A stretch of DNA of 64,000 bases, taken from the NCBI RefSeq assembly GCF_016862095.1, contig NZ_BOMH01000028.1, positions 310,001 through 374,000 on the forward strand, in the 5' to 3' direction. Shown here piece after piece: positions 9,221 to 58,801 of this stretch; position 1 is the stretch's first letter; each line of letters begins with the position of its first letter. The notes beneath the pieces are model-generated. The model searched no databases and had not been told where the DNA came from. It saw only the letters and a list, made by a program, of their open reading frames with translations. The DNA is from Actinoplanes cyaneus (lineage in GTDB: Bacteria; Actinomycetota; Actinomycetes; Mycobacteriales; Micromonosporaceae). The position numbers and the translations under genes were made by a program.

Positions 9221-9304
9221 CCGGGATCGATCAGCACGGGCCGGCCCGTCGCGGGCCGACCCGGTCGCCGGGCAGGCTCAGTCGCGGGCCGGCTCGGCCG
9301 GAGG

Positions 9305-11581
9305 TCAGGCCAGCGAGGACAGAACCGGCGGCAGCGGCGCGGTGTGCAGGACCCCGAGGCGCTGCGTGGCCCGGGTCACGGCGACGTAGAGATCGGACAG
9401 TCCTCGCGGGCTGTCCGCGATGATCTCGTCCGGGCAGATCACCAGGACGGAGTCGAACTCCAGGCCCTTCGCCTGCCGGACGGTCATCAGGACGACGTGG
9501 TTCAGCAGGTCGGGCTGCTCCCCCACGGCCGCGCCCGGCACCGCCTCGACCAGGGCCGCGCCGAGCGTCTCCTGCAGCCGCGCCGGGACCAGGACGCCGA
9601 CCCGGCCGGACTCGACGGCGGCGGCCTCCTTGCGGACGTCGGCGATCAACTCCTCGGCGAGCGCCTCCGCCGGGACGTGCCGCGCCCACGGGGTGACCCC
9701 GGCGGAACGGACCGAGCGCGGCGGCTTCAGCGCCGGGCCGACCTCGGCGAGCACGTCCGCGGCGACGGCCATGACCTCGGCCGGGGTGCGGTAGTTGACG
9801 CTCAGCTCGACCAGCCGCCAGCGCTGCCCGACGTACGGCTCGAAGATCTGGTCCCAGCTCGTCGACCCGGCCGGCTCGGACGTCTGCGCGACGTCGCCGA
9901 CCACCGTCATCGAGCGGCTCGGGCAGCGGCGCATCAGCAGCCGCCACGCCATCGGCGACAACTCCTGCGCCTCGTCGACGATCACGTGGCCGAACATCCA
10001 GGTGCGGTCGGCCGCGGCGCGCTCGGCCGCGGTCCGGGTGTCGATCACCTCGTGCCGCTCGACGAACGCACTGGCGTCCACCACGTCGATCGCGGAGAGG
10101 ATCTCCTCCTCCTGGTCCTCGAAGTCCAGCGACCGGGAGCCCTCGACGATCTCCAGCACGCCCTCGGCGTAGTCGATCGCGGCCTCCCGCTCCCGGGCCG
10201 CCTCCCGCTTCTTCAGCGTGTCGTCGACGCCGAGCAGCTCGGCCAGCTCGTCGAGCAGCGGCACGTCGGCCGGCGTCCAGCGGGCGTCCCGGTCACGCAG
10301 CAGCGACGGCGGAAGACCCGCCGACTCCAGCCGGCCCGCATCGGTGAGCAGGTCACGCAGCACCTGCCGGGGCGTCAGAACCGGCCAGAAATCGAAGAGC
10401 ATCTGCTGTACGTCGATGTCCTCCCGCAGCTCACGGCGGGTCTCCGCGAGGTCGGCGTCGGAGAGCAGGTTCTCCCCGCCGAGCGGGTCGGCACCGATGC
10501 GCTCGGCGATCTGCAGCGACAACGCGTGGATCGCCTCGGTGACGAAGACCGCCCGGGCCACGTTGTGCGGGCGGCCGGACCGGCGGGCGACGGCACGCGC
10601 GTCCTCGATCAGCGCGCGCTCGATCCGCAGCGGGTAGCCGTCGTGGTCGACCTCGGCGAACGTCTCCGGGACGGTCTGCCGGTCGGCGACGGCGTTCTCC
10701 AGGGCCGGCAGCATCAGGTCGAGGTCGCCCTTGACCAGGGCCACGTCGTCCGGCTCGTGGCCGCGGGCGCGCACCCCCGGGAACATGTCGCCGAGGGTGG
10801 CCAGCAGGACACCGGTCTCGGCGAGCGACGGGAGGACCTGGGAGATGTAGCGCAGGAACGTGAGGTTCGGCCCGAGGATCAGCACGCCGGACTTGGTGAG
10901 CTGCTGGCGGTAGGTGTAGAGCAGGTACGCCGCGCGGTGCAGCGCGACCGCGGTCTTGCCGGTGCCCGGCCCGCCCTGGACCACCAGAGCGCCCGCGAGA
11001 CCGGAACGGATCACTTCGTCCTGCTCGGCCTGGATGGTCTCGACGATGTCGCGCATCCGGCCGGTCCGGTTCGCGGTCAGCGCGGAGAGCAGCGCCGCCT
11101 CACCGGTCACGTCCTCCCGCCCGGTGCCGTCACCGGCCTCCAGGTCGAGCACCTCGTCGTCGACGCTGGTCAGGACGCGGCCGCGGGTGCGCAGATGCCG
11201 CCGCCGGGTGACCCCCTCCGGGTTGACCGCGGTGGCGAGATAGAACGGCCGGGCGGCCGGGGCGCGCCAGTCGACCAGGAGCGGGTCCTGGTCACGGTCC
11301 TCGGCGAAGAGCCCGATCCGGCCGATGTACTGATTCGCGCCGGTGGTGTAGTCGAGACGGCCGAAACAGAGACCGTTCTCCACGGAATTCATCTGGGCGA
11401 GCTGCTCCGCGTAGTGGGCACGGGTGGCCTCGCGCTGGGTGCGGCCCTGCGGGGTGCCGCCCGCCTCCAGCAGGATCGCCTTGAGCCGGCTGTCGGCCTG
11501 CTCACGCAGCTGGTCGAGCCGCTGGTAGAGCGCGGTCAAGTACGCCTGCTCGGAATCGACGTCGGCGTTCGAGCTTGACAA
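9305..11581 (-). CDS. helD: HelD-type UvrD-like helicase (RNA polymerase recycling factor)
   Basis: 758 residues. The N-terminal coiled coil EQAYLTALYQRLDQLREQADSRL is the HelD secondary-channel arm. Walker A is GGPGTGKTA at about residue 200; the Walker B equivalent is VIVDEAQELSP; further motifs are VVGDVAQTSEP, VELSVNYRTP and VRQAKGLEFDSV. HelD/HelR proteins pry stalled or rifamycin-bound RNA polymerase off DNA. Several starts are in frame: TTG 11620, ATG 11605 and TTG 11581. I prefer 11581 because AAAAGGGG lies 5 nt upstream and the N-terminus then matches the family length. A perfect hairpin occupies 11616-11639, just upstream. The gene lies between the two sigma paralogs. Confidence 0.9.
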   Translation of the reverse strand: MSSSNADVDSEQAYLTALYQRLDQLREQADSRLKAILLEAGGTPQGRTQREATRAHYAEQLAQMNSVENGLCFGRLDYTTGANQYIGRIGLFAEDRDQDPLLVDWRAPAARPFYLATAVNPEGVTRRRHLRTRGRVLTSVDDEVLDLEAGDGTGREDVTGEAALLSALTANRTGRMRDIVETIQAEQDEVIRSGLAGALVVQGGPGTGKTAVALHRAAYLLYTYRQQLTKSGVLILGPNLTFLRYISQVLPSLAETGVLLATLGDMFPGVRARGHEPDDVALVKGDLDLMLPALENAVADRQTVPETFAEVDHDGYPLRIERALIEDARAVARRSGRPHNVARAVFVTEAIHALSLQIAERIGADPLGGENLLSDADLAETRRELREDIDVQQMLFDFWPVLTPRQVLRDLLTDAGRLESAGLPPSLLRDRDARWTPADVPLLDELAELLGVDDTLKKREAAREREAAIDYAEGVLEIVEGSRSLDFEDQEEEILSAIDVVDASAFVERHEVIDTRTAAERAAADRTWMFGHVIVDEAQELSPMAWRLLMRRCPSRSMTVVGDVAQTSEPAGSTSWDQIFEPYVGQRWRLVELSVNYRTPAEVMAVAADVLAEVGPALKPPRSVRSAGVTPWARHVPAEALAEELIADVRKEAAAVESGRVGVLVPARLQETLGAALVEAVPGAAVGEQPDLLNHVVLMTVRQAKGLEFDSVLVICPDEIIADSPRGLSDLYVAVTRATQRLGVLHTAPLPPVLSSLA

Positions 11582-16332: not shown

Positions 16333-17382
16333 TCACTCGGCGAGGTCCGTGTCCCGGAGCAGGGACCAGAGGCCGGCGCCGTCCGGGGCGGCGAACCACG
16401 TCTTGCCCCCGGACGGCACGGCCTCGGCCTCCTCGGTAGGGCCGGGCACGGCGCCGGCCAGCACCGCCTGGGTCGGCGAGAGCCGGCGGATCGCCACGGC
16501 GGCCACATTGTCCGGGTGCTCGCGGGCGAACTCGGAGTAGATCTCCTGGTCGTGCTGCCCGTCGTCGCCGACGAGCAGCCATTTGACGTCGGGGAACTCC
16601 TGAGCGAGCCGGCGCAGCGAGTTGCGCTTGTGCTCCTGGCCGCTGCGGAACCAGCGATCCGGCGTCGGGCCCCAGTCGGTGAGCAGGATCGGGCCGGCCG
16701 GGTAGAGGTGGCGGCTGAGGAACCGGCTCAGCGTCGGCGCGACGTTCCACGCCCCGGTGGAGAGATAGATCACCGGCGCGCCCGGGTTCGCGTTGATCAG
16801 CCGCTCGTAGAGCACCGCCATGCCGGGGACCGCCATGCGCGCGTGCTCGTCGAGAACGAACGTGTTCCACGCGGCGAGCAGCGGGCGGGGCAGCGCGGTG
16901 ACCATGACCGTGTCGTCGATGTCGGAGACCAGGCCGAACTTGACGGCCGGGTCGATCACCCGGATCGGGGCGTCGGCCGGGGCGGCGCCCTCGCAGTGCA
17001 GCCGGACGCTGGCCCAGCCGGGCTCGAGGTCGCCCTTGACCCGGCAGTCCACATAACCGCTGCGGTCGGTGCGGGTCTCGGTGACGCTGCCGCCGACCTC
17101 GATGCGCACGACGGCGTTGCTGACCGGCGTGGTGGTGAAGCTGCGCCAGCCGCGCAGTTTCTCCCGCTTCTTACGGACCAGGCGGGGACGGGACAGCAGC
17201 ACCCGGCCCATCACCCGGGCCCAGCCGGGGGCGCCGTAGCCGGTGTAGGCCGTGATGTACGGCTTCCAGCCACGGTTGCGCAGGTTGCGCTCGATCACCT
17301 GGTGCACGGCATCCTCGACCAGCGCAGCCCGGTGGATCCGGGTCATCGCCTTGGACGACTCCGCCGGTGTTACCGCCACCAT
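16333..17382 (-). CDS. App1-type phosphatase domain protein (DUF2183)
   Basis: 349 residues. A beta-rich N-terminal domain (VVRIEVGGSVTETRTDRSGYVDC) precedes a HAD-like App1 domain with the catalytic DxDxT motif (LVSDIDDTVMVT), then IYLSTGAWNVAPTL, LLTDWGPTPDRWFRSG, KRNSLRRLAQEFPDVKWLLVGDDGQHD and the C-terminal IYSEFAREHP. In yeast App1 is a Mg-dependent phosphatidate phosphatase; bacterial members are assumed to act on a phospholipid or a similar phosphate ester. The start is uncertain: ATG 17382 has GGAGGAG directly against it, and TTG 17421 has no ribosome site. It is divergent in position from the next minus genes but may share their transcript. Confidence 0.87.
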   Translation of the reverse strand: MVAVTPAESSKAMTRIHRAALVEDAVHQVIERNLRNRGWKPYITAYTGYGAPGWARVMGRVLLSRPRLVRKKREKLRGWRSFTTTPVSNAVVRIEVGGSVTETRTDRSGYVDCRVKGDLEPGWASVRLHCEGAAPADAPIRVIDPAVKFGLVSDIDDTVMVTALPRPLLAAWNTFVLDEHARMAVPGMAVLYERLINANPGAPVIYLSTGAWNVAPTLSRFLSRHLYPAGPILLTDWGPTPDRWFRSGQEHKRNSLRRLAQEFPDVKWLLVGDDGQHDQEIYSEFAREHPDNVAAVAIRRLSPTQAVLAGAVPGPTEEAEAVPSGGKTWFAAPDGAGLWSLLRDTDLAE

Positions 17383-17480
17383 CTCCTCCTCGCCGTTGCG
17401 CTCTCCCCGCCGCCGCGCCAAACGTTACCGGTCGGGTGCGACAGGCCGCTCGGGAACGTGAGCCCGGTCCAGGATGGACA

Positions 17481-35964: not shown

Positions 35965-38019
35965 TCAGGCGTCGATCGTCTCCTGGTCGATCCGGCCGGC
36001 AGCCTCGATCAACCAGTTCTTCCGGGGCTCGACCCGCTCACCCATCAGCAGCTCGAGAGTGGCCTCGGCCCGCTCGGCGTCGTCCAGCGTGATGCGCCGG
36101 ACGGTCCGGGTGGCGGGGTTCATCGTGGTGTCCCACAGCTCGTCGGCGTCCATCTCGCCGAGACCCTTGAACCGGCTCACCGGGGCCAGCGACCGGCCCT
36201 CCCGCTGCAGCCTGCCGAGGGTGGCCTCCATCTCCTGCTGGGTGTAGGTGAAGAAGGTCTCGGCGTTGCGACCCTTGGTGGTCAGCTTGTGCAGGGGCGG
36301 CATCGCGGCGAAGAGCCGGCCGTGCTCGATCACCGGCCGCATGTACTTGGCGAAGAGCGTGATCAGCAGGGTCCGGATGTGCGAGCCGTCGACGTCCGCG
36401 TCGGCCATCAGCATGACCCGCCCGTACCGCATCGAGCCGATGTCGAAGGTCCGGCCGGAGCCGGCGCCGAGCACCTGCACGATGGCCGAGCACTCGGCGT
36501 TGTCCAGCACCTGCTGCAGGCTGGCCTTCTGCACGTTGAGGATCTTGCCGCGGATCGGCAGCAGCGCCTGGTACTCCGAGGAGCGGGCCATCCGGGCGGT
36601 GCCGAGCGCGCTGTCACCCTCGACGATGTAGAGCTCGCTGCGGGAGATGCCGGTGGTACGGCAGTCGACCAGCTTGGGCGGCATCGAGGCGCCTTCGAGG
36701 GCGGTCTTGCGGCGGGCCGCGTCCTTCTGCTGTTTCTGGGTCAGCCGGACGCGAGCCGCGTCCACCACCTTCTGCAGGACCGTGCGAGCCTCGGTCTTCG
36801 TGCGCCGATCGTCGATCCAGCCCTTGAGGTACGTCTCGACGAGGCTCTGCGTCACGCGGGTGATGCCGGCCGTCGACAGCTCGTCCTTGGTCTGCGAGGT
36901 GAACTGCGGCTCCGGGACCCGGACGTGGATGACCGCGGTCATGCCCTCCAGGAAGTCGTCCAGGACGGGCGGCTCCTCCTTGGGCTTGAGCAGCCCGCGG
37001 GCGTTCCGGATGGCCTCGGTCAGCGCGCGTGTGAGGGCCCGCTCGAAGCCCTTGCGGTGGGTGCCACCGTGCACGTTGCGGATCGTGTTGGTGAAGCACT
37101 CGACGGTGCGCTCGTAGCCGGTGCCCCAGCGGAAGGCGATCTCCACCTGGGCCTCGCGGACCACGTTCGACTGCATGACACCGTTGGCGTCGGCGGCGTT
37201 CTCCTTGTACGTCCCCTCGCCGTTGATCAGCAGGATCCCGGAGACCGGCTTGTCCGAGGCCGGGGTCAGGAACTCCACCATGTCGGTGAGCCCGTTCGGG
37301 AAGTGGAACGTCTCGGTGGCCGGCTCCTCGGCGGTCGCGTCGAAGAGCGTGAACTGCACCCCGGCCACGAGGAACGCGGTGTTGCGCAGCTTGCCGCGGA
37401 CGGCCTCGACGTCGAGCCGCGCGCCGCTCTCGAAGTAGCGGGCGTCATACCAGTACCGCGTGGAGGTGCCGGTGGGCTCGCCGCGCTTCATCCGGCGCAC
37501 GACCCGCAGGCCGGGCTGCGGGGTGAACGGCGCGTCGGGCCCGTGACCGTCGAAGACCCCGGGCACGCCACGCTGGAACGAGATCTCGTGCACCTTGCCG
37601 TCGCGCTTGACGGTGACGTCGTAGCGCAGCGAGAGCGCGTTCACCGCGGAGGCGCCGACGCCGTGCAGGCCGCCGGACGCCTTGTAACCCGAACCGCCGA
37701 ACTTGCCGCCGGCGTGCAGCCGGGTCAGCACCAGCTCGACGCCGCTCAGGCCGCTCTTGGCGTGCACGTCGGTCGGGATGCCCCGGCCGTCGTCGTCGAC
37801 CTGGACCGAGCCGTCGGTGTGCAACGTGACGGCGATCTGGGTGGCGTGGCCGGCGACCCCCTCGTCCGTGCAGTTGTCGATGATCTCGTTGGCCAGGTGG
37901 TTGATGCCCCGGCTGTCGGTGGACCCGATGTACATCCCTGGGCGTTTCCGGACAGCGTCCAGCCCTTCCAGGTGCGTGAGGTCGTCAGCCCCGTACAAGG
38001 TCTCTGGCTGTGCGGTCAC
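35965..38019 (-). CDS. parE: DNA topoisomerase IV subunit B
   Basis: 684 residues. The GHKL ATPase reads RKRPGMYIGSTDSRGINHL, EIIDNCTDEGVAG, DDDGRGIPTDVHAKSG and KASGGLHGVGASAVNALS. The TOPRIM domain shows ELYIVEGDSALGTARMARS and MLMADADVDGSHIRTLL, with the C-terminal KGLGEMDADELWDTTMNPATRT. The lengths match ParE/GyrB without large insertions. It is named ParE because the chromosomal gyrB-gyrA pair of actinobacteria usually lies near dnaN/recF, and because its partner lacks a GyrA box. The start is GTG 38019. The operon order parE-parC is clear. Confidence 0.9.
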   Translation of the reverse strand: MTAQPETLYGADDLTHLEGLDAVRKRPGMYIGSTDSRGINHLANEIIDNCTDEGVAGHATQIAVTLHTDGSVQVDDDGRGIPTDVHAKSGLSGVELVLTRLHAGGKFGGSGYKASGGLHGVGASAVNALSLRYDVTVKRDGKVHEISFQRGVPGVFDGHGPDAPFTPQPGLRVVRRMKRGEPTGTSTRYWYDARYFESGARLDVEAVRGKLRNTAFLVAGVQFTLFDATAEEPATETFHFPNGLTDMVEFLTPASDKPVSGILLINGEGTYKENAADANGVMQSNVVREAQVEIAFRWGTGYERTVECFTNTIRNVHGGTHRKGFERALTRALTEAIRNARGLLKPKEEPPVLDDFLEGMTAVIHVRVPEPQFTSQTKDELSTAGITRVTQSLVETYLKGWIDDRRTKTEARTVLQKVVDAARVRLTQKQQKDAARRKTALEGASMPPKLVDCRTTGISRSELYIVEGDSALGTARMARSSEYQALLPIRGKILNVQKASLQQVLDNAECSAIVQVLGAGSGRTFDIGSMRYGRVMLMADADVDGSHIRTLLITLFAKYMRPVIEHGRLFAAMPPLHKLTTKGRNAETFFTYTQQEMEATLGRLQREGRSLAPVSRFKGLGEMDADELWDTTMNPATRTVRRITLDDAERAEATLELLMGERVEPRKNWLIEAAGRIDQETIDA

Positions 38020-38155
38020 GAGTGTGGGTCTCCCGGTCGCCCGTCAGTGGTCAGAACGGCGCGAGCCTACCCGGCCCCTCCGACACTTCTGTCCCAGGCG
38101 AGCCAGGTCATGGCCTGTCAGATCGAAAATTCGGGTAAAAGGTTACAAAATTCCG

Positions 38156-48902: not shown

Positions 48903-49865
48903 ATGCGCGTCCTGCTGGTCACGGCCCTCACCCCGGCCGTGTGGGGCACCACCTACGCGGTCACCACGGAATTCCTCCCGCCCGGGAGACCACTGCTCAG
49001 CGGGGTGCTGCGCGCGCTGCCGGCCGGGCTGCTCCTGCTCGCGGCGACCCGGAGACTGCCGCACGGGGCGTGGTGGTGGAAGTCGGCGGTGCTCGGGGCG
49101 CTCAACATCGGGTTCTTCTTCGCCCTGCTGTTCGCGAGCGCGTACCGGCTGCCCGGCGGCATGGCGGCGGTGCTCGGGGCGGTGCAGCCACTGCTGGTGG
49201 CCGGGCTGTCCACGCTGCTGCTCACCGAGCGCGCGTCACTGCGTACCGTGCTCGCGGGGTTGATCGGCGCCGTCGGCGTCGCCCTCGCGGTGCTGACCGC
49301 CGCCGCCCGCCTCGACCCGATCGGGATCCTCGCCGGGCTGGCCGGGGCGGCGTCGATGGCCGTCGGTCTCGTGCTGACCAAGCGGTGGGGCCGGCCGGGC
49401 GTCTCGCTGCTGACCGCGACCGGGTGGCAGCTGACCGCGGGCGGCCTGGTCCTGATTCCGATCATGCTGCTCGGCGAGGGCCTTCCGGCCTCGCTGAGCG
49501 GCAGGAACCTCATCGGGTACGGCTATCTGTCGCTGATCGGGACAGCGGTGGCCTACACCCTGTGGTTCCGCGGACTGGAGCGCCTGCCCGCCGCGCGCGT
49601 GTCGCTGCTGAGCCTCCTCTCGCCGGTGACCGCGACCGCGCTCGGCTGGGCGGCGCTCGGCCAGTCCCTGACCGCTGTGCAGGTCAGCGGCATGGTGCTG
49701 GCGTTCGGCGCGGTGCTCCTCGGGCAGTCGTCGACCCGTCGGCCGGGGGCCGGTCGTCCACCGGCGGGGGTTGTCCACAGGCGATTCCGGGTGACCGCAA
49801 AACGTCGTACCCGCGGCCTAGGGTCGATCCGTGCTCGCAGAACGATGGTCTCTCGCCCAGGCTGA
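48903..49865 (+). CDS. EamA-family (DMT) transporter
   Basis: 320 residues with about ten hydrophobic segments in two EamA repeats: TPAVWGTTYAVTTEFLPPGR through AVLGAVQPLLVAGLSTLLLTE, and GLAGAASMAVGLVLTKRWG through LERLPAARVSLLSLLSPVTATALGW. The family exports metabolites, amino acids or drugs. GAGGGAGTTGCG precedes ATG 48903. The last ~45 residues are basic and non-membrane (HRRFRVTAKRRTRGLGS), and the frame runs 35 nt into the next gene, so the tail may be incidental read-through. Confidence 0.88.
   Translation: MRVLLVTALTPAVWGTTYAVTTEFLPPGRPLLSGVLRALPAGLLLLAATRRLPHGAWWWKSAVLGALNIGFFFALLFASAYRLPGGMAAVLGAVQPLLVAGLSTLLLTERASLRTVLAGLIGAVGVALAVLTAAARLDPIGILAGLAGAASMAVGLVLTKRWGRPGVSLLTATGWQLTAGGLVLIPIMLLGEGLPASLSGRNLIGYGYLSLIGTAVAYTLWFRGLERLPAARVSLLSLLSPVTATALGWAALGQSLTAVQVSGMVLAFGAVLLGQSSTRRPGAGRPPAGVVHRRFRVTAKRRTRGLGSIRARRTMVSRPG
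49819..49824 (+). promoter_or_regulatory. -10 element (TAGGGT) of a leaderless promoter for the SWIM operon
   Basis: TAGGGT ends 6 nt before GTG 49831. It lies inside the 3' end of the EamA gene. This gives the SWIM/MoxR/VWA operon its own promoter. Confidence 0.55.
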
Positions 49866-52758
49866 GTCGCTGGCCCCCGACGCCGCCGCGCTCAAACGTG
49901 CCCGCGCGGTGTCCGGGCAGTTCGGTCCGACCGGCCTGCTCGACGGCATCCTCTGGGGGCTGTGCCGGGGCTATCGGGTCGCCGCCGACCTGGCCGGTCC
50001 GGCGTTCACGTGCTCCTGCCCCAGCTTCCAGGCGCCCTGCAAACATGCGGTCGGCCTGCTGCTGCGCTGGGCCGAGACCGGCGCCGGCGCCGATCCGGCG
50101 CCCGAGTGGGTGACGAAGTGGCAGGCCATGCGGGCCGCGCGGGCGAAGCCGAAGGAGGCCGGCACGCCCGACCCGGCCGCCGCCGCGAAACGCGCCCGCG
50201 AGCGCGCCGAGCGGGTCGCCGGCGGCATGACGGAGCTGCGGCGCTGGCTCGACGACCAGGTCGAGCAGGGGCTGGCCGGGCTGGGCCGGCGTGGCCACCA
50301 GGCGTTCGAGCCGATGGCCGCCCGCCTGGTCGACGCGCAGGCGCCCGGCGTGGCGAGCGCTGTCCGGCGCCTCGGCGGGATCGCCGGGATCGGCCCGCAG
50401 TGGGCCGACCGGCTGCTCGGTGAGCTGGCCATGCTGCACCTGGTGGTCGCCGGGCACGACCGGCTCGCCGCGCTCGACCCGGCGACGGCCGCGACCGTCC
50501 GCTCGCGGATCGGCTTTCCCACCCCGGCCGAGGAGGTGCTGGCCGGGCCGCGGGTCACCGATCGCTGGCAGGTGCTCGGCCGGCACGACACCGACGACGG
50601 CGCGCTGACCACCCGGCGGACCTGGTTGCACGGCTCGTCGACGGCACGGTTCGCGCTGGTGCTGTCGTTCGCCGCGCCCGGGCAGTCGCTGACCACCGAC
50701 CTGGTGCCCGGCACGGAGTTCCGTGGCGACCTCTGCTTCTATCCGGGTGCGGCGCCGCTGCGGGCGCTGGTCGCGTCCCGCGACAGCGCCGCCGAGCCCT
50801 TCGGCTCGCCGGACGGCGCCGGGCCGGTCCGGGCGGCTCTCTCGCGCTGGTCCGCGCTCCTGGCCGCCGAGCCTTTCCGGTACGACGGGCCGATGCTCCT
50901 GGCGCAGGTCACGCCGACGGCGGACGGCTGCCTCGTGGACCCCTCGGGCGATGCCCTGCCCCTGGCGGCCGGGCAGCGGGAGCCGTGGTGGCTGCTCGCC
51001 GCCGCCGGTGGCCGGCCGGCCACGGTGGCGGGCGAGTGGTCGCCGGGTGGGTTGCGCCCGCTGGCCGCGTGGGTGGAGGGCGAGTTCGTCCCGGCCGCGC
51101 CGCCGGCACCGGATCCGGGGGCGCCCCGGGCGGCCGAGCTGCCCGCGGAGATGCTGGCGGCCGCCCTGGTGGGGACGGCTCGGCGGCCGTGGTCGGGGCG
51201 GTCGGTCCGGGTCGGCGCGGCCCAGGTCGAGCTGGACTGGGGGTGGCCGGCCGAGTCGCCCGGCATCACGCTCTCCCCCGAGGCGACCACCGACGTGGCG
51301 GCCTTCCACGCCGGCCCCGGGGCTGTCCCCGGCGGACCCGGCCGGCCGTCGTCATCGGTGGCCCTGCTCGACGCGGCGGCGGTCGCGCTGACCTCCCGGC
51401 GAGCCGGTTTCGAGCCCGAGAGGAAAGTGCCGGTCACCGCCGCGCCGGCCGAGACGGCGCCGCCGCTGCCTGTCGAGGCCGGGGTGCGGCTGGGGCGGAT
51501 CCTGCGAGGTGGCGCACCCGGCGGTGCCCACCTGGACCAGGAACTGCTGGCCCAGTGGCTGTCCGCGGCGGCGGCCCGGGGCGGGGTCGTCCCGTCGACG
51601 GTGCTGCCGGCGCTGCTGGACGCCGCGCGGCGCAACACGACGGTCCGTGGCGACGTCGCGCGGGTCGCGGGCCGGCGCGGCGGCTGGCTGGCCGCGCAGC
51701 GGGCGGACTGGCGCTGGCTGCTCGACGAGGCGGCGCCGGTCACGGTCGTCGACTGGGCGACGGCCACCAGCGCGGAACGCCTGGGTCACCTGATCACCCT
51801 GCGGCGCGCCGACCCGGCCCGGGCCCGGGAGCTGGTGGCGAGCACGTGGGCCGCCGAGTCCTCGGAGGACCGGGCCCGGTTCCTCGCCACGTTCGCCGAC
51901 GGTCTCGCCCCCGGCGACGAGGAGCTGCTGGAGCGGGCCTTGGACGACCGGCGCAAGGAGGTCCGGCAGGCCGCCGCCGAGTTGCTGCGCCGGCTGCCCG
52001 GGGCGGCGCTCGGACGGCGGATGCGGCAGCGGGCGCACGCCGCGGTCCGGCTGGTCCTCAGCGACCCGCCGCGGCTGGCGGTGCAGCCACCCGACGAGCT
52101 GGACGCGGTGCTGCGGCGCGACGGCGTGGGCGCCACCCCGGCCCACGGCGCCGGGGCCGGCGCGTGGCTGCTGGAGGAGGTCGTCGCCGGCGCGCCGCTG
52201 GACTCGTGGACCGAGCTGGAGCCCTCCGGTTATGTGGCGCTGGCCAGGGGGAACGACTGGGCCGGCCCGCTGCTGCACGGCTGGGCCAAGGCCGCCATCA
52301 CCCAGGGCGACGCGCGCTGGGCGGCGACGCTGCTGGCCGCGGACGCCGGGGCGCTGCGCGAGGCGGTCTGCTGGGACCTGCACCTGGTGCTCCCGCCGGA
52401 TGCGCTGGCCCGGCTGGCCGCCGAGGCGCTGCGGGCCGAGGACGGGTCGGCGCACCGGCTGCTGGCACTGCATCCGGGGCCGTGGCCGGAGCCGCTGAGC
52501 GTGACGGTCCTGGAGACCATCGCGCATCGCGCCCGCACCGATCGGCACACCTGGCAGCTCGGTGAGCTGTGCCGGACGGCCGCGCTCGCCATGCCCCCGG
52601 CATATGCGGATCTCACCGGCCGGCTCGCCGCCCAGCTCGAGCCGGAGGTGGACCCGAGCCGGGTCCGGCCGGTCGCCGATCTGGCCCGCACGCTGACGTT
52701 TCGCGAGGAGATGCTGCGCGAGTTGCGGGCGCCGGAAAGTGTCACACCCCAGCGGTAG
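49831..52758 (+). CDS. SWIM zinc-finger / DUF5691 protein
   Basis: 975 residues. The N-terminal ~95 residues contain a SWIM finger: FTCSCPSFQAPCKHAVGLLL, with the CxC...CxH zinc ligands. The rest is a long, mostly helical region with the DUF5691 pattern (AAALVGTARRPWSG, HEAT-like repeats such as ARARELVASTWAAESSEDRARF and DDRRKEVRQAAAELLRRLP, and a C-terminal REEMLREL). SWIM domains bind DNA or proteins. The gene starts leaderless at GTG 49831 and lies 48 nt before the MoxR gene. E. coli YehQ is a SWIM protein in an equivalent cluster. I infer an adaptor or recognition role. Confidence 0.87.
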   Translation: MLAERWSLAQAESLAPDAAALKRARAVSGQFGPTGLLDGILWGLCRGYRVAADLAGPAFTCSCPSFQAPCKHAVGLLLRWAETGAGADPAPEWVTKWQAMRAARAKPKEAGTPDPAAAAKRARERAERVAGGMTELRRWLDDQVEQGLAGLGRRGHQAFEPMAARLVDAQAPGVASAVRRLGGIAGIGPQWADRLLGELAMLHLVVAGHDRLAALDPATAATVRSRIGFPTPAEEVLAGPRVTDRWQVLGRHDTDDGALTTRRTWLHGSSTARFALVLSFAAPGQSLTTDLVPGTEFRGDLCFYPGAAPLRALVASRDSAAEPFGSPDGAGPVRAALSRWSALLAAEPFRYDGPMLLAQVTPTADGCLVDPSGDALPLAAGQREPWWLLAAAGGRPATVAGEWSPGGLRPLAAWVEGEFVPAAPPAPDPGAPRAAELPAEMLAAALVGTARRPWSGRSVRVGAAQVELDWGWPAESPGITLSPEATTDVAAFHAGPGAVPGGPGRPSSSVALLDAAAVALTSRRAGFEPERKVPVTAAPAETAPPLPVEAGVRLGRILRGGAPGGAHLDQELLAQWLSAAAARGGVVPSTVLPALLDAARRNTTVRGDVARVAGRRGGWLAAQRADWRWLLDEAAPVTVVDWATATSAERLGHLITLRRADPARARELVASTWAAESSEDRARFLATFADGLAPGDEELLERALDDRRKEVRQAAAELLRRLPGAALGRRMRQRAHAAVRLVLSDPPRLAVQPPDELDAVLRRDGVGATPAHGAGAGAWLLEEVVAGAPLDSWTELEPSGYVALARGNDWAGPLLHGWAKAAITQGDARWAATLLAADAGALREAVCWDLHLVLPPDALARLAAEALRAEDGSAHRLLALHPGPWPEPLSVTVLETIAHRARTDRHTWQLGELCRTAALAMPPAYADLTGRLAAQLEPEVDPSRVRPVADLARTLTFREEMLRELRAPESVTPQR

Positions 52759-52806
52759 TTTGCTGATCGAGCCACCAATCGGTCAGCCCACCTTCAGGAG
52801 TTCGAG

Positions 52807-53868
52807 TTGTCAGCTCTGCGACCGCACGCCGAGGATCAGTACGCCGACGAGCTGGCCCTCCTGGCCGCCGGCGACGACCGGCCGCGGCCGCCCGGGTGGC
52901 GTCTGTCGCCGCAGGCCGTGGTGACCTATCTGCTGGGCGACGGCGCCAAGATCACCCCGAAGTATGTGGGGCCCCGCCGCCTGATCGAGGTGGCCGTGTC
53001 CACGCTGGCCACCGACCGGGCACTGCTGCTGCTCGGCGTGCCTGGCACCGCCAAGACCTGGGTCTCCGAGCACCTGGCGGCCGCCATCTCCGGCGACTCG
53101 AAACTGCTGGTCCAGGGCACCGCGGGCACGGCCGAGGAAGCCATTCGCTACGGGTGGAACTACGCCCGCCTGCTCGCCGAGGGCCCGACCGACGCGGCCC
53201 TGGTGCCCAGCCCGATCATGCGGGCCATGCAGACCGGGGCGATCGCCCGGCTGGAGGAGTTGACCCGCGTCCCGTCCGACGTGCAGGACGCGCTGATCAC
53301 CATCCTGTCGGAGAAGACGCTGCCCGTCCCGGAGCTGAACACCGAGGTCCAGGCGCAGCGCGGCTTCAACCTGATCGCCACTGCCAACGACCGCGACCGC
53401 GGGGTGAACGAGCTGTCCAGCGCGCTGCGGCGGCGGTTCAACACGGTGGTGCTGCCGATGCCGGCCAGTGCCGACGACGAGGTGGAGATCGTCGCCCGCC
53501 GGGTGGCGCAGCTCGGCAGGTCGCTGGAGCTGCCGGAGGTGCCGGCCGCGCTGGAGGAGATCCGCCGGGTGGTCACGGTCTTCCGCGAGCTGCGGTCCGG
53601 CCTGACCGAGGACGGGCGCACCAAGCTCAAGTCGCCGACCGGGACGCTCTCCACCGCCGAGGCGATCTCCGTGATCACCAACGGGATGGCGCTGGCCGCG
53701 CACTTCGGGGACGGGACGCTGCACCCCGGTGACGTGGCGGCCGGCATTACCGGCGCGGTGATCAAGGATCCGGTCTCCGACGCGGTGGTGTGGCGCGAAT
53801 ACCTGGAGACCGTCGTCCGGGAGCGGCCCGGCTGGCTGGATTTCTATCGGGCGGCACGCGATGCCTGA
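52807..53868 (+). CDS. MoxR-type AAA+ ATPase (YehL-like)
   Basis: 353 residues. Walker A is LLGVPGTAKTW; sensor 1 is FNLIATANDRDRGVN; the arginine finger region is SSALRRRFNTVVLP. The Walker B position reads AIARLEELTRV, Glu-Glu where MoxR proteins usually have Asp-Glu. AAA+ proteins of this class act as chaperones that remodel or load cofactors into partners, often with a VWA protein; one is encoded at 56567. TTG 52807 has AGGAG 6 nt upstream. The stop overlaps the DUF5682 start by 8 nt (ATGCCTGA). Confidence 0.92.
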   Translation: MSALRPHAEDQYADELALLAAGDDRPRPPGWRLSPQAVVTYLLGDGAKITPKYVGPRRLIEVAVSTLATDRALLLLGVPGTAKTWVSEHLAAAISGDSKLLVQGTAGTAEEAIRYGWNYARLLAEGPTDAALVPSPIMRAMQTGAIARLEELTRVPSDVQDALITILSEKTLPVPELNTEVQAQRGFNLIATANDRDRGVNELSSALRRRFNTVVLPMPASADDEVEIVARRVAQLGRSLELPEVPAALEEIRRVVTVFRELRSGLTEDGRTKLKSPTGTLSTAEAISVITNGMALAAHFGDGTLHPGDVAAGITGAVIKDPVSDAVVWREYLETVVRERPGWLDFYRAARDA

Positions 53869-56158
53869 GCGGTTCTACGGGGTCCGGCATCACGGGCCCG
53901 GCTCAGCCCGGGCGGTGGTGCGGGAGCTGACGGCCCAGCAGCCGGAGATTCTGCTGGTGGAGGGGCCACCGGAGGCCGACGACCTGGTCCGCTGGGTGGC
54001 CGGTGGCGGGCTGGAGCCGCCGGTCGCGCTGCTCGGCTATGCGGCGGAGGATCCGGGCCGGGCGGCGTTCTGGCCGTTCGCGGTCTTCTCACCGGAGTGG
54101 CAGGCGATCCGGTGGGCGGTGGAGAACGAGGTGCCGGTCCGCTTCTTCGACCTGCCCTACGCGTTCCGGGTGGGCGCGGCCGACCCGGCTGCCGTCGTGC
54201 CGGCGGGCCCCGCCGAGCCGGCCCCCGAAGTGCCTGCGGGCCCCGCCGATCCGGCTCCCGAAGTGCCGGGAACAGCGGATGAGACGCCTCCCGGGAGCAT
54301 GACGGACGAGGCCCGGCGACCGGTGGACCCGATCGGGGAGCTGGCCTCGGCGGCCGGCTACGACGATCCGGAGCGCTGGTGGGAGGACGTGGTCGAGCAC
54401 CGCGGCGTGCCGGTCTTCGAGGCGATCGCGGAGGCGATGACGGCGATCCGCGAGGGCGCCGCGGAGGATCCCGAGGATCTGCTGCGGGAGGCCTACATGC
54501 GGACCGTGCTGCGGGAGGTCCGGCGCAAGCACGAGAACATCGCTGTGGTCTGCGGGGCGTGGCACGTGCCGGCGCTGACCCGCAAGGTCCCGGTCAAGGA
54601 GGACACCGCGCTGCTCAAGGGCCGGCGCAAGGGCAAGGTGGCCTTCACCTGGGTCCCGTGGACGTATGGACGGCTGGCGTCGTGGTCGGGTTACGGCGCG
54701 GGCGTGACCTCCCCGGGGTGGTATCACCATCTGTTCACCAGCGCTGACGCGGTCGTGCCGCGGTGGCTGGTGGACGCGGCCGGCGTGCTGCGCGCGGAGG
54801 GCGTGCCCACCTCGTCGGCGCACGTGATCGAGGCGACGCGGCTCGCCGAGACCCTGGCCACGCTGCGCGGGCGGCCACTGGCCGGGCTCGCCGAGGTGAC
54901 CGAGGCCGCCGAGGCGGTGATGTGCGACGGGGAGCCGCTGCGCACCGAGCTGATCAACCGGCGGCTCGTGGTCGGCGAGCGGCTCGGCACGGTGCCGGAC
55001 GAGATGCCCGCGGTCCCGCTCGCCAAGGATCTGACCGCCCAGCAGCGGGCGCTGCGGCTCAAGCCCGAGGCAGCCGAGCGCGAGCTGAAGCTGGACCTGC
55101 GCAAGGACACCGACCTGCGGCGCAGCCGACTGCTGCATCGACTGCGGACGCTCGACGTGCCGTGGGGCGAGCCGGCCGCGGGGCGGCGCGGGACAGGGAC
55201 GTTCCGTGAGGAGTGGGTGCTGCGCTGGCAGCCGGAGTTCGCGGTGCGGCTCGTCGAGGGCAGCATGTGGGGCACGACGGTGGCCGGTGCGGCGAGCGCG
55301 CGGGTGATCCGGCGGGCGCGGACCGCGAAGACGCTCGCCGAGGTGACCGCGCTGCTGGAGACGTGCCTGCTGGCGGAGCTCGGCGAGGCCTACCCGGAGG
55401 TCCTGGCCGCGCTCGACACCCGGGCCGCGCTGGACGCGGACATCCACCACCTGATGGCGGCGCTCCCGGCGCTGGCCCGGACGTTACGGTACGGGGATGT
55501 CCGCCGCACGGACGTGGCCGGCCTCGCCACGGTCGCCGCCGGCCTGCTGAAACGGATCTGCGCCGGGCTTCCGTCGGCGGCCGGGTCGCTCTCCGGCGAC
55601 GCGGCGAGGCAGCTGCGCGACGGGGTCGACGGCGTGCACCAGGCGGTCAGCCTGCTCGCCGACGACGAGCTGCGGGAGTTGTGGCTGGCGACGATCGAGT
55701 CGCTGGCGCGGCGGCCGGATCTGCACGGGCTTCCGGCCGGCCGGCTGACCCGGTTGCTGCTGGATGCGGGGCGACTCGATACCGTTGAGGTGCGCCGCCG
55801 GCTGCGGCTGCCGCTGACAGTGGGCACCCCACCGGCACACGCGGCCGCCTGGGTCGAGGGTTTCCTGGCCGGGGGCGGGCTGCTGCTGGTGCACGACGAC
55901 GCGCTGCTCACGCTGGTCGACGAGTGGCTGGCGGACGTGCCGGAGGAGGCGTTCGAGGACGTTCTGCCGTTGTTGCGGCGCACGTTCGGGACGTTCGAGG
56001 CCGGGGAGCGGCGGGCCATCGGTGAGCGGGTGGCCGGGCCACGGGCGGGAGCGGCCCGGGCCGCAGTCGCGGCGATCGACGAGAAACGGGCGGTTTCGGT
56101 GCTGCCCGTGCTGGGCGCCCTGCTCGGGCGCGAGATCCACATCCGGGAGGACGCATGA
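53861..56158 (+). CDS. DUF5682 protein (YehM-like), possible TraB/TIKI-like active site
   Basis: 765 residues. The N-terminal half shows GVRHHGPGSARAVVREL, ILLVEGPPEADD, VRFFDLPYAFR and IAVVCGAWHVPAL. The order GxxHH, Glu, then GxxH resembles TraB/TIKI/EreA-type hydrolases, which is a motif-based inference. An internal Ala/Pro-rich insert (about residues 108-140) contains a doubled AGPA(E/D)PAPEVP unit. The C-terminal half is helical, with LRKDTDLRRSRLLHRLR and EEWVLRWQPEFAVRLVEGS. It is coupled to the MoxR gene (8-nt overlap) and to the next ORF (4-nt ATGA). Its role in the system is unknown. Confidence 0.87.
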   Translation: MPERFYGVRHHGPGSARAVVRELTAQQPEILLVEGPPEADDLVRWVAGGGLEPPVALLGYAAEDPGRAAFWPFAVFSPEWQAIRWAVENEVPVRFFDLPYAFRVGAADPAAVVPAGPAEPAPEVPAGPADPAPEVPGTADETPPGSMTDEARRPVDPIGELASAAGYDDPERWWEDVVEHRGVPVFEAIAEAMTAIREGAAEDPEDLLREAYMRTVLREVRRKHENIAVVCGAWHVPALTRKVPVKEDTALLKGRRKGKVAFTWVPWTYGRLASWSGYGAGVTSPGWYHHLFTSADAVVPRWLVDAAGVLRAEGVPTSSAHVIEATRLAETLATLRGRPLAGLAEVTEAAEAVMCDGEPLRTELINRRLVVGERLGTVPDEMPAVPLAKDLTAQQRALRLKPEAAERELKLDLRKDTDLRRSRLLHRLRTLDVPWGEPAAGRRGTGTFREEWVLRWQPEFAVRLVEGSMWGTTVAGAASARVIRRARTAKTLAEVTALLETCLLAELGEAYPEVLAALDTRAALDADIHHLMAALPALARTLRYGDVRRTDVAGLATVAAGLLKRICAGLPSAAGSLSGDAARQLRDGVDGVHQAVSLLADDELRELWLATIESLARRPDLHGLPAGRLTRLLLDAGRLDTVEVRRRLRLPLTVGTPPAHAAAWVEGFLAGGGLLLVHDDALLTLVDEWLADVPEEAFEDVLPLLRRTFGTFEAGERRAIGERVAGPRAGAARAAVAAIDEKRAVSVLPVLGALLGREIHIREDA

Positions 56159-56574
56159 GCAGTTCAGAACTCTTTTCACACTCCGCCGAGCCGCCGCCGT
56201 CGGGCGAGGTGGCGGCCCAGCCCGCGGAGCTGACCTTCTCGCATCCCACGCCGGACGAGGCGGACGGGTCCCGGGCCGGGGCGGCGACGCCGCCGGACCG
56301 GATCTTCTCGCACCCCAAGGCCGGCCTCGAAGGATCGGGCAGAGGCGTCGACGGCTCCGGCAGAGGGTCCGGCGCGGAGAGCTTCGGCAGGCGGTCCGGA
56401 GCGGAAAGCTCCGGCAGGCGGCCGGGCAGCGGGCGGGCAGAGGCTTCCGGCGGGCACGGGCGTGGCGAGCGAACGAGAGGGGGTGGCCGGGTTGGCCGGG
56501 CGGATGACCCTGGTCAGGGCAAAGATGGTGGCCGCCGCGGCGGGGGCGGGCGCCCGGGGAGAACGCATGGCTGA
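56155..56574 (+). CDS. Disordered 139-aa ORF with three FSH motifs
   Basis: Starts in a 4-nt ATGA overlap with the DUF5682 gene and stops (56572-56574) over the VWA start in the same ATGnCTGA arrangement that joins MoxR to DUF5682, which supports translation. The sequence is disordered: FSH occurs at residues 7-9, 28-30 and 51-53 (ELFSHS, LTFSHP, RIFSHP), then a Ser/Gly/Arg-rich part with SGAESFGRR/SGAESSGRR repeats. GC at third positions is normal until about 56450 and drops after it, where the VWA frame looks more coding. It may instead be the N-terminal part of a longer VWA protein split by a frameshift. Confidence 0.5.
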   Translation: MSSSELFSHSAEPPPSGEVAAQPAELTFSHPTPDEADGSRAGAATPPDRIFSHPKAGLEGSGRGVDGSGRGSGAESFGRRSGAESSGRRPGSGRAEASGGHGRGERTRGGGRVGRADDPGQGKDGGRRGGGGRPGRTHG

Positions 56575-57817
56575 GCCCGTCCCCGAGGAGGAGCCGGCCG
56601 CCGATTCCCTGGCTCGCACGGACCTCACGGCAGGGCAGGGCGACGCGGGCCGGGAACGGCTGCGGCGGTGGCGGCTCGTGCTCGGCGGGGCAGCCGAGGA
56701 GTCGCTCGGCAAGGCCGGCGGGCGGGACGGGGCGATGGACGAGGCGCTGGCGGCGCTCTACGACACCGCCGGGGACGGCGACGGAACGTCCGTGAAGCGG
56801 TCGGCCGGGCTGGGCGGGTCGGCGCCGAAGGTGGCGCGCTGGCTGGGCGACATCCGGGAGTACTTTCCGAGCACCGTCGTGCAGGTGATGCAGGCCGACG
56901 CGATCGAGCGACTCGACCTGACCCGGCTGCTGCTGGAGCCGGAGATGCTGGCCGCCGTCGAGCCGGACGTGCACCTGGTCGGCACGCTGCTCGCACTGAA
57001 CCGAGTCATGCCGGAGGCCACCAAGGACGCCGCCCGGCAGGTCGTCCGCACGGTCGTCGAGCAGCTCGAACGCCGGATCGCGCAACAGACCCGGGCCGCG
57101 GTGTCCGGCGCGCTGAACCGGGCCGCCCGGATCAGCCGGCCGCGGCACGCCGACATCGACTGGGACAGGACGATCCGGGCGAACCTGAAGCACTACCAGG
57201 CCGAGCACCGCACGGTGATTCCTGAGCGACTGGTGGGGTACGGGCGGCGGACCACCGCCGTACAGCGGGACGTGATCCTCTGCGTCGACCAGTCCGGCTC
57301 GATGGCCGCCTCGGTCGTCTTCTCCGGGGTGTTCGCGGCGGTGCTGGCGTCGCTGCGGTCACTGCGGACGTCGCTGGTCGTCTTCGACACCGCCGTGGCA
57401 GACCTGACCGAGCAGCTCAGCGACCCGGTCGACGTGCTCTTCGGCACCCAGCTCGGCGGCGGGACGGACATCAACCGGGCGATCGCCTACAGCCAGACGC
57501 TGATCACCCGCCCGCGGGACAGCATCTTCGTGCTGATCAGCGACCTGTACGAGGGCGGCGTGCGGGACGAGATGCTGCGCCGGGTCGCCGAGATGACCGC
57601 GGCCGGGGTGCAGGTGGTGGCGCTGCTGGCGCTCTCCGACGAGGGCGCGCCGGCCTACGACCACGAGAACGCGGCGGCGCTGGCCGCGCTCGGGGTGCCG
57701 GCGTTCGCGTGCACGCCGGACGCGTTCCCCGACCTGATGGCGGCGGCGATCGAGCGGCGGGATCTGACGGCGTTCGCGGAACGTTTCGCCGACCGCCAGG
57801 CCACCGCCACCGGCTGA
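56567..57817 (+). CDS. VWA-domain protein (YehP-like)
   Basis: 416 residues. An N-terminal helical region begins ERLRRWRLVLGGAAEESLGK and includes ARWLGDIREYFPSTVVQVMQ and RHADIDWDRTIRANLKHYQ. The VWA domain has an intact MIDAS: DQSGSM, Thr in GGGTDINRA, Asp in LISDLYEGG. The C-terminus is AFAERFADRQATATG. VWA proteins of this set pair with a MoxR ATPase. ATG 56567 has GGGGAGA 6 nt upstream; GTG 56462 in the same frame would add 35 residues whose codon use also looks coding. It is the last gene of the operon. Confidence 0.88.
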   Translation: MAEPVPEEEPAADSLARTDLTAGQGDAGRERLRRWRLVLGGAAEESLGKAGGRDGAMDEALAALYDTAGDGDGTSVKRSAGLGGSAPKVARWLGDIREYFPSTVVQVMQADAIERLDLTRLLLEPEMLAAVEPDVHLVGTLLALNRVMPEATKDAARQVVRTVVEQLERRIAQQTRAAVSGALNRAARISRPRHADIDWDRTIRANLKHYQAEHRTVIPERLVGYGRRTTAVQRDVILCVDQSGSMAASVVFSGVFAAVLASLRSLRTSLVVFDTAVADLTEQLSDPVDVLFGTQLGGGTDINRAIAYSQTLITRPRDSIFVLISDLYEGGVRDEMLRRVAEMTAAGVQVVALLALSDEGAPAYDHENAAALAALGVPAFACTPDAFPDLMAAAIERRDLTAFAERFADRQATATG

Positions 57818-57826
57818 CTTACCGAG

Positions 57827-57871
57827 AGCCGGCCGGAACCCCACCGCGATCGGCGTGGGTCATGGCCGGCT
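57827..57871. terminator. Stem-loop after the VWA gene
   Basis: AGCCGGCC (57827-57834) pairs with GGCCGGCT (57864-57871), and further imperfect pairing (CCCAC with GTGGG) lies inside. It sits 10 nt after the operon's last stop, in the convergent gap. Confidence 0.5.
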
Positions 57872-57949
57872 GGTCATCGTCGCGACGACGTGGAGTCGGG
57901 AGCACGCGTCCCGGCCAGGCGCGGCCCGGCCGGGACGACGACGCGGCTC

Positions 57950-58498
57950 TCATCCGTTGCGGCCGCCGGTGCCGGCGTACCCGGCGAGGCCTTTCGCCTC
58001 GGCGGCGTCCCGCAGCAGGTCCCGGTGGTGGGCGATGACGGGCTCAGCATCGGCGGCGAGTTCCTTGACGGACTGCTCGGAGCCGTCGCTGATCTGCTCG
58101 GAGACCAGTTTCAGGCTGTCGCGGTGTGCGGCCAGCTGGGTCGAGATGAAGTACTCGTCGAACGTGTCGGCGCCCGCCGCCTCGTACCGCCGGGTCAGGG
58201 CCTGCTGCTCCTCGGTGGGTGCGTCCGGCAGGAAGACCCGCAGTTGGCGCGCGGTCTGGTAGAGGTCCGCGTCCAGGTGGATGTGGTCGCGCATCAGGGT
58301 GGCGGCCAGTGTCTTCACGGTTGGGTCGTTGCTCGTCGTCCAGGCGATCCGGCCGGCACTGATCTCGGCCAGGTTCGCCTGGTGAGCGGCCTTGAGGAAG
58401 GCGGCGTCCTGGGCGGACGGCTCGGCCTGGGCGGCGGTGGCGGGCAGGGCCAACAGCCCGGCGACGCCGACGGTTGTCGAAATTCGGCGCAAAAGCAT
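57950..58498 (-). CDS. Secreted DUF4142 protein
   Basis: 182 residues. The signal peptide LLRRISTTVGVAGLLALPAT ends AAQA before EPSAQD. The helical DUF4142 domain follows: AAFLKAAHQANLAEISAGRI, KTLAATLMRDHIHLDADLYQ, DEYFISTQLAAHRDSLKLVS, ending AEPVIAHHRDLLRDAAE. It resembles a ferritin-like four-helix bundle. The family's function is unknown, often linked to envelope stress. ATG 58498 is preferred because GAGGAG is 6 nt upstream; ATG 58504 directly abuts that site. Confidence 0.88.
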   Translation of the reverse strand: MLLRRISTTVGVAGLLALPATAAQAEPSAQDAAFLKAAHQANLAEISAGRIAWTTSNDPTVKTLAATLMRDHIHLDADLYQTARQLRVFLPDAPTEEQQALTRRYEAAGADTFDEYFISTQLAAHRDSLKLVSEQISDGSEQSVKELAADAEPVIAHHRDLLRDAAEAKGLAGYAGTGGRNG

Positions 58499-58579
58499 AC
58501 TCATCTCCTCGAATAGGGCATCTTCACCCTAGTCAACGAGATGTGGGGTGCATTCGCTTTCGACCGCATTGACCAGGGG

Positions 58580-58801
58580 TCACTGGGTCCACCGGAGGAA
58601 GCGATCGAAAAGCGCCGACGCGGCCGCCTGCGGCATGTCCCTGGCGGCTTCCTCGAGGTAGTTCCACATCAGCACGGCGAGATCCATCCGGCCGTGCGTG
58701 CGGCTCAGCACTTCTCGAGCCGGCTCACAGGGCCACCGACGCCCGCAGACCCGGCAGTCCCACGACGGCCGCGCGGGAAGGTGTTCCGCTTCCTCGGCCA
58801 C
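58580..58801 (-). CDS. Small CxxC protein, 73 aa
   Basis: The core SWDCRVCGRRWPCEPAREVL holds three Cys in a CxxC...WPC pattern that could bind zinc, followed by a helical tail (RMDLAVLMWNYLEEAARDMP, then ALFDRFLRWTQ). Similar small WxCxxC..WPC proteins occur next to other genes in streptomycetes and Micromonosporaceae, with no assigned function. GTG 58801 has GGAGGGGG 5-7 nt upstream; the opening to 58861 is longer and less likely. It lies 81 nt upstream of the DUF4142 gene on the same strand. Confidence 0.7.
   Translation of the reverse strand: MAEEAEHLPARPSWDCRVCGRRWPCEPAREVLSRTHGRMDLAVLMWNYLEEAARDMPQAAASALFDRFLRWTQ

Follow-up and report, generated by a model that had tools for sequence, protein, structure and literature searches.

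A 64,000-nucleotide (nt) stretch of the Actinoplanes cyaneus genome (assembly GCF_016862095.1, contig NZ_BOMH01000028.1, positions 310,001-374,000; genome size 10.36 Mb), hereafter called the window, was analyzed for a row of co-oriented genes encoding a SWIM zinc finger protein fused to DUF5691, a MoxR-type AAA+ ATPase, a DUF5682 protein, and a von Willebrand factor A (VWA) protein. These proteins almost certainly constitute a conserved functional unit, and the promoter in front of the SWIM gene is, judged from its elements, very probably of the LexA-independent (PafBC/P1) DNA-damage type. The locus contains the following features.

49803-49824 (+): putative PafBC/P1-type promoter, CGTCG-N11-TAGGGT, one base off the TGTCR core
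49831-52758 (+): SWIM-DUF5691 gene, 975 amino acids (aa); DUF5691, 447.5 bits; SWIM zinc finger, 22.6 bits (cut-off 19.6)
Residues 61-72 of this protein: SWIM zinc finger CSCPSFQAPCKH, CxC...CxH, by Pfam and motif, fused to DUF5691 (residues 440-965)
52740-52761 (+): second motif copy TGTCACACCCCAGCGGTAGTTT, exact TGTCR-N11-TANNNT, preceding the MoxR gene
52807-53868 (+): MoxR-type AAA+ ATPase gene, 353 aa; AAA_5, 136.7 bits
53861-56158 (+): DUF5682 gene, 765 aa; DUF5682, 915.2 bits
56155-56574 (+): Gly/Arg-rich small open reading frame (ORF), 139 aa; no Pfam family; three FSH(P/S) repeats
56567-57817 (+): VWA gene, 416 aa; VWA_CoxE, 182 bits

The genes, their coordinates, and their shared orientation had been described in an original prediction made from the DNA alone, and they agree with the ORF list and the Pfam matches, as do the predicted overlaps of 8, 4, and 8 nt (ATGCCTGA at 53861-53868, ATGA at 56155-56158, and ATGGCTGA at 56567-56574). 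The junction between the SWIM and MoxR genes is a gap of 48 nt without overlap (SWIM stop at 52758, MoxR TTG start at 52807), and an AGGAG-like site precedes the TTG. The GTG at 49831, which had been read as a leaderless start, is supported as such because the TAGGGT -10 element ends 6 nt upstream and relatives keep the same layout. One component of the predicted operon did not hold up: the DUF5682 and VWA genes abut or overlap in many relatives, the length of the gap between them varies widely, and a BLAST match to the 139-aa ORF was found only in the nearest relative. This ORF was accordingly rejected as a member of the conserved unit and is, as far as sequence comparison goes, a fast-changing, clade-specific spacer ORF; its three FSH(P/S) repeats (56155-56574) are kept in the nearest relative (L043), though the remainder has diverged. 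An Amidohydro_2 match in the VWA protein (27 bits, cut-off 26.4) was taken as spurious, being marginal and falling inside the VWA match, and Rfam and tRNA scans of the window gave no matches.

Linkage was assessed in 60 related genomes (the host included), with matches to the DUF5691 and DUF5682 profiles counted above the cut-off. DUF5691 was present in 39 of these genomes and DUF5682 in 42, and a scripted distance measurement placed the two within 2.5 kb of each other in 38 of the 39; in the 39th (G017) the DUF5682 match is split and its first piece lies approximately 1.6 kb away. Within the genus, 35 of 36 genomes, again counting the host, carry DUF5691. In a sample of 296 genomes from the phylum, all 18 with DUF5691 above the cut-off also have DUF5682, and three have DUF5682 alone. 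Public species genomes were scanned with a DUF5682 alignment and the best 80 of 589 confirmed stretches were used; because the scan was baited with DUF5682 and the best matches were kept, it describes this subtype and not all DUF5682 genes. Loci with at least 5.5 kb before and at least 1.3 kb after DUF5682 were considered testable (70 of 80), and ten truncated loci were set aside. SWIM, DUF5691, MoxR, and VWA were all present in 69 of the 70, and in the remaining one (L132) DUF5691 is visible at the edge of the locus. SWIM and DUF5691 are fused in ten of those 69 loci, split in the same direction in 34, and split with SWIM on the opposite strand in 25; across the 70 testable relatives they are two separate genes in 60. 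The public loci reach Leptolyngbya and Thiofilum besides actinobacteria. The grouping of these genes is far beyond chance, and the scattered, unlinked genes that the original prediction had named as the outcome speaking against it were looked for, with the result that linkage is nearly complete. Of 33 Streptomycetaceae loci, 30 have a sucC-like gene downstream of the unit, and the remaining three stop short of that position. In Kribbella steppae (L139), the MoxR and DUF5682 genes are unusually far apart and a member of an ORF cluster (approximately 8703-10226) overlaps the interval between them; the cluster's representative (L180) resembles a TnpB-type transposase by eye.

The linked MoxR-VWA pair anticipated by the original prediction was likewise recovered, with ATPase and metal-ion-dependent adhesion site (MIDAS) motifs intact. 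The window MoxR protein contains Walker A, Walker B, sensor 1, and an arginine-finger-like RRRF, and in the public loci the first three are kept in 78/78 and RRRF in 75/78. From the AAA_5 match and these motifs the protein is assigned to the MoxR AAA+ ATPases, with no subfamily given. The window VWA protein has a complete MIDAS (DQSGSM, GGGTD, and SDLY), with public counts of 75/76 for DxSGSM, 75/76 for GGGT(D/N), and 74/76 for SDL; family and motif together identify it as a predicted VWA co-chaperone.

The aligned starts of the SWIM genes share a block consisting of TGTCR, 11 nt, and TANNNT, with the start codon usually 6-8 nt further on. The PafBC regulon of mycobacteria, which is LexA/RecA-independent, is reported to have the consensus tTGTCRgtg - 8 nt - TannnT (PMC5656591), and PafBC is described as activating such promoters via a -26 element in the presence of single-stranded DNA (PMC11804915). 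The exact motif TGTCR-N11-TANNNT stands at 54 of the 75 public SWIM genes that have an upstream stretch, at loci spanning 24 of 33 named taxa, and of the 76 matches present in the whole 3.17 million strand-bases these sites account for 54; a relaxed [TC]GTCR raises the count to 58/75. Spacings of 7-10 and 12-15 nt, the reversed pattern, and the opposite strand each gave zero at the SWIM genes. Upstream of the other genes the motif was seen once in 304 regions (DUF5691 0/72, MoxR 1/78, DUF5682 0/78, and VWA 0/76). The PafBC-type promoter is therefore found in the family as a whole, exact in 54/75 and with fixed spacing, and only approximately in the window, where the copy at 49803-49824 has C for the first T of TGTCR, a diverged gtg triplet, and a -10 element ending 6 nt before the GTG. 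The internal copy at 52740-52761 was rejected as a general feature, being present in 1/78 public loci (L120). A generic sigma-70 scan of positions 49000-58600 detected no promoter, which does not argue against a promoter of another type. A stress system had been among the original suggestions, and the promoter supports it and makes it specific.

Related arrangements were found in the host itself, which has two more DUF5682 loci (L033 on G000:C13 and L034 on G000:C2), both with MoxR and VWA; their partner proteins differ from the window type, and one has DUF5682 and VWA in a single frame. Among the actinobacteria examined we distinguish four arrangements by a numbering of our own. Type I is that of the window. 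Type II, which corresponds to E. coli yehI-L-M-P-Q, comprises (WGR-)DUF4132, MoxR, DUF5682, VWA, and a YehQ-like protein; the full set was verified only in L048, L049, L107, and L112, in which MoxR is 62-64% identical to YehL and VWA 57-58% identical to YehP (48% each in L106). In type III, MoxR and a single frame encoding DUF5682 and VWA are accompanied by large proteins that match no Pfam family and by a 675-aa protein that has no Pfam match either but in which a SWIM-like CxC...CxH can be made out by eye. Type IV has a short Cys-containing protein, an unassigned protein, VWA, MoxR, and DUF5682. MoxR, DUF5682, and VWA are constant across the types; the scaffold varies, as does the zinc-finger or WGR component. 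Kinship with E. coli yehLMPQ, which had been proposed originally, is borne out by the same core genes: the window locus groups MoxR, DUF5682, VWA, and SWIM in one cluster, and its DUF5682 is 25% identical to YehM. The DUF4132/WGR partner was not found in the window operon, where DUF5691 takes that place; it is present in sister loci. In the open-licence literature, two or more of yehL/M/P/Q are named together in two papers, both of them genome descriptions as judged by title, single mentions not having been exhausted. Promoters of type II were assessed at 15 loci with the DUF4132 gene start in hand (L265, L266, and L106 being outside the test), and TGTCR-N11-TANNNT lies upstream, within approximately 70 nt of an ORF start, in 14 of them, L269 being the one without. 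With the motif at type I and type II loci, one promoter type is common to at least two systems of different composition. At the type III loci L104, L105, and L283 the motif stands before an ORF of 280-300 aa.

The companions of the motif were examined in two genomes. In the host, TTGTCRN11TANNNT occurs at 34 sites versus 10 for the reversed control, which puts the share of chance matches among the host sites at perhaps one third. From these sites 20 downstream genes were examined, picked mostly for a leaderless ORF, and by domain content ten belong to repair or replication (RecA, NAD-dependent ligase, DNA polymerase I, Mfd-like, Y-family polymerase, RadA-like, two AlkZ-like glycosylases, HelY-like helicase, and HolB-like subunit), the other ten being mixed or unassigned. 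In a probable Streptomyces (G218), TTGTCRGNG-N8-TANNNT occurs at 33 sites versus 0 for the control. These include the SWIM gene of the present system (L230) and a site before a 284-aa ORF that is itself ahead of the first recognized gene of a type III locus. Ten of the 19 other downstream genes examined there are of repair type (RecA, RuvC, UvrA, Mfd-like, RecD2-like, PD-(D/E)XK nuclease, MGMT, UDG-family protein, and two DEAD helicases). The host also has a PafBC-like pair of adjacent WYL genes; next to them lie genes for TatA, TatC, and a helicase carrying DEAD and DSHCT domains, and we take the whole to be the pafBC-tat-helY arrangement. Without pafBC, M. smegmatis is reported to have lower levels of MoxR1, MoxR2, and one von Willebrand factor protein (-1.6 to -1.7), possible relatives of the operon products (PMC5656591).

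Several further genes behind the motif were observed in passing. YjbR-family genes follow it in both the host and G218 (L208 and L234), and YjbR may be an unrecognized member of the regulon. Another SWIM-finger protein gene of G218 (L250) is leaderless behind the same promoter type. Within the window, a gyrase-B/ParE-type topoisomerase gene at 35965-38019 (-) has an exact TGTCR-N11-TANNNT at 38064-38085 (-), approximately 45 nt before its start, and may be a second damage-regulated gene. Another exact copy at 17422-17443 (-) lies just upstream of an unannotated ORF at 16333-17421 (-).

Members of the Tiki superfamily are marked by a pair of conserved GxxH motifs together with an acidic residue, and the conserved residues of DUF5682 resemble these. 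R9, H10, H11, E34, E79, G232, and H235 are invariant in 26/26 aligned members found by HMM, and G7 is nearly so; the corresponding counts of 80/80 and 79/80 in the public loci are partly circular because the peptides served as search patterns. The GxxH pair and acidic residue that mark the Tiki/ChaN/TraB group are present in DUF5682. The best other Pfam matches were ChaN (E 0.056) and TraB (E 0.066), two families of the Tiki superfamily, each in 1/26 members, and a search for solved relatives by sequence returned none that convinced (best E 0.39). We treat a hydrolase, possibly of the Tiki/ChaN/TraB kind, as a lead only, somewhat short of an even chance. Searches of the open-licence literature (5.39 million papers) found no mention of DUF5682 or DUF5691.

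A functional observation may be attached to the system through Streptomyces coelicolor. Pfam confirms two succinyl-CoA synthetase genes in a Streptomycetaceae locus (L155), and the S. coelicolor succinyl-CoA synthetase genes are given as SCO4808 and SCO4809 (PMC3293853, PMC8981147). From the gene order before this pair, and not from S. coelicolor sequence, SCO4803 is expected to encode the MoxR, SCO4804 the DUF5682, and SCO4805 the VWA protein of this system; the 815 aa reported for SCO4804 fits the 774-956 aa of DUF5682 in Streptomycetaceae loci. One open-licence paper was found that names genes from the SCO4801-SCO4806 range. A transposon insertion in sco4804 is reported to reduce the topA transcript to approximately 70% and TopA protein to approximately 50% and to lower gyrB, over-expression briefly raises topA and gyrB, and sco4804 and its neighbors are induced eightfold upon TopA depletion (PMC8120823). 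The authors' proposal from these results, that SCO4804 with SCO4805 activates the topA promoter upon negative supercoiling, is the alternative that survives best here, although we consider it improbable: the effects are modest and transient, plasmid supercoiling is unchanged in the mutant, and the DNA-binding regions are the authors' predictions from sequence (PMC8120823). At E values up to 0.01, neither the DUF5682 nor the VWA protein of the window has a Pfam DNA-binding domain. A MoxR ATPase and a MIDAS VWA protein are not known as usual parts of a transcription factor. A damage-response machine acting on topology or on trapped topoisomerases fits the S. coelicolor data as well and accounts for the ATPase.

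Taking these results together, we think it probable that the operon belongs to the LexA-independent (PafBC-type) actinobacterial damage regulon and encodes one ATP-driven remodeling machine, in which the SWIM protein would be the adaptor and DUF5682 a putative hydrolase. Single-stranded DNA would activate PafBC, giving a leaderless transcript from the SWIM gene, a step with sequence support. SWIM-DUF5691, MoxR, the MIDAS VWA protein, and DUF5682 would then act as one unit, as suggested by their linkage, by the SWIM-DUF5691 fusion, and by the single frame for DUF5682 and VWA in a sister system, with binding among them presumed. The zinc-finger protein, or the WGR protein in sister systems, may bring the unit to a DNA or nucleoprotein site, where MoxR-VWA would remodel a protein; we judge the chances that the substrate is such a DNA-linked protein to be evenly balanced. 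DUF5682 might, in the weakest step, process the remodeled protein as a Tiki-type metal-dependent hydrolase. The target may lie in chromosome topology, for example a topoisomerase-DNA complex or its regulation, with which the S. coelicolor data are compatible. As in the original prediction, we infer that the SWIM protein selects the target and that DUF5682 is an enzyme.

A number of observations weigh against this interpretation. The window promoter copy is one base off the TGTCR core, 21/75 SWIM genes do not have the exact motif, including every Kribbella and Amycolatopsis locus, Leptolyngbya, and Thiofilum, and a share of the host sites is attributable to chance, as given above. Neither the E. 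coli yeh stretch nor the type III stretches from the window genus and the three type IV loci show the motif, although the type III and type IV stretches may not all reach the first gene. In one Nostocaceae metagenome-assembled genome (L144, one of the ten truncated loci), a window-type DUF5682 was accompanied by no VWA detectable within 10 kb downstream. DUF5682 gave a negative result when its profile was compared with a thin one from two TraB-like sequences. In S. coelicolor, besides the unchanged supercoiling, the sco4804 insertion also lowers the next gene, sco4805, a polar effect (PMC8120823). Among the matches listed in searches of the open-licence literature, none was seen to link MoxR-VWA-DUF5682 to DNA damage, and no damage-induction data for these genes were found. 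An initial search is reported to have pointed to a lack of conservation of the M. smegmatis PafBC motif in S. venezuelae (PMC9380542); the enrichment of the motif before repair genes in G218 differs from that statement and bears on a question left open in the same source.

A NorQD/CbbQO-like chaperone that inserts a metal or cofactor into one damage-made enzyme, with DUF5682 in the loading complex, is an unlikely alternative. Published MoxR-VWA pairs act as metal- or cofactor-insertion chaperones (PMC13036017, PMC9976466), NorQ is the only solved ATPase besides midasin that the window MoxR matches at E 1e-8, and the VWA protein belongs to the VWA_CoxE family. Set against this is the lack of a recurring client: of the 567 clusters formed by flanking ORFs, only nine with four or more loci are shared by two or three of the ten taxonomic groups, and no cluster occurs in more than three. 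Candidate client metalloenzymes were rejected, none recurring beside the unit, and the gene for a B12-binding protein in Streptomycetaceae sits beyond the convergent end of DUF5691. SWIM, WGR, and DUF5691/DUF4132 are not known as parts of cofactor loaders. We hold to a similar degree of doubt a narrower machine for the repair of DNA-protein crosslinks or trapped topoisomerases, in which a damage-induced AAA+/VWA ring, guided by SWIM or WGR, would pull on proteins stuck to DNA and pass them to DUF5682 as a Tiki-like metalloprotease; if true, such a machine would parallel the eukaryotic p97-SPRTN pathway in function, with E. coli yehLMPQ as a relative.

Carriers of the window-type unit are largely filamentous taxa, which would suit a conflict system of the vWA-MoxR kind (anti-phage, abortive, or interbacterial defense) switched on by DNA damage. 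Ternary vWA-MoxR systems are described as occurring mainly in multicellular prokaryotes (PMC7159879), vWA-MoxR-VMAP genes as accompanying type III CRISPR loci (PMC10910872), and a possibly related P. aeruginosa cluster, which encodes a MoxR-like ATPase together with a VWF protein, as one of those studied for defense against antagonism (PMC8926400). We nonetheless regard such a conflict system, also raised in the original prediction, as very unlikely because no VMAP, effector, or peptidase Pfam family is found in the window proteins at E values up to 0.01, bpMoxR scores 22.5 bits (under the cut-off of 27) and the best PADLOC match has E 0.0071, the distribution is steady (DUF5691 throughout nearly the whole genus and a steady chromosomal place before the sucC-like gene in Streptomycetaceae), and the promoter type is common to recA and other repair genes.

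The damage-type promoter in front of the SWIM gene is new here. For a regulated remodeling machine of the kind we favor, it gives the DUF5682 and DUF5691 genes a stimulus, a likely regulator, and testable phenotypes, joins the single S. coelicolor topA result to the whole system, and suggests a role for MoxR-VWA in genome maintenance.

Compared with known systems, the locus combines familiar parts in its own way. With the vWA-MoxR-VMAP ternary systems (PMC7159879) it shares the MoxR and vWA pair, whereas it has none of the VMAP, effector-associated, or peptidase families and is steady in the genus. NorQ/NorD and other MoxR-VWA chaperones likewise pair an AAA+ ATPase with a MIDAS VWA protein; the window unit differs in having no recurring neighboring client, in its additional SWIM-DUF5691 and DUF5682 proteins, and in its promoter type. 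Modules of MoxR and vWA other than the present one are also described in print (PMC10067837, PMC12067865). Unlike the window, Streptomyces loci have SWIM and DUF5691 as separate genes on the opposite strand, and the main text of PMC8120823 on the S. coelicolor locus makes no mention of MoxR, von Willebrand, or SWIM. In E. coli MG1655, yehI-L-M-P-Q also has adjacent, co-oriented MoxR, DUF5682, VWA, and SWIM genes, but with DUF4132 (YehI) upstream, a separate SWIM gene at the end, and no DUF5691 found in that control genome. Relative to the mycobacterial PafBC promoters, the conserved SWIM gene promoter departs in the third triplet, gtg, which the window and many relatives lack, and is the same in elements and spacing; as in the PafBC regulon, which has itself been shown in mycobacteria, the companion genes of the motif include recA.

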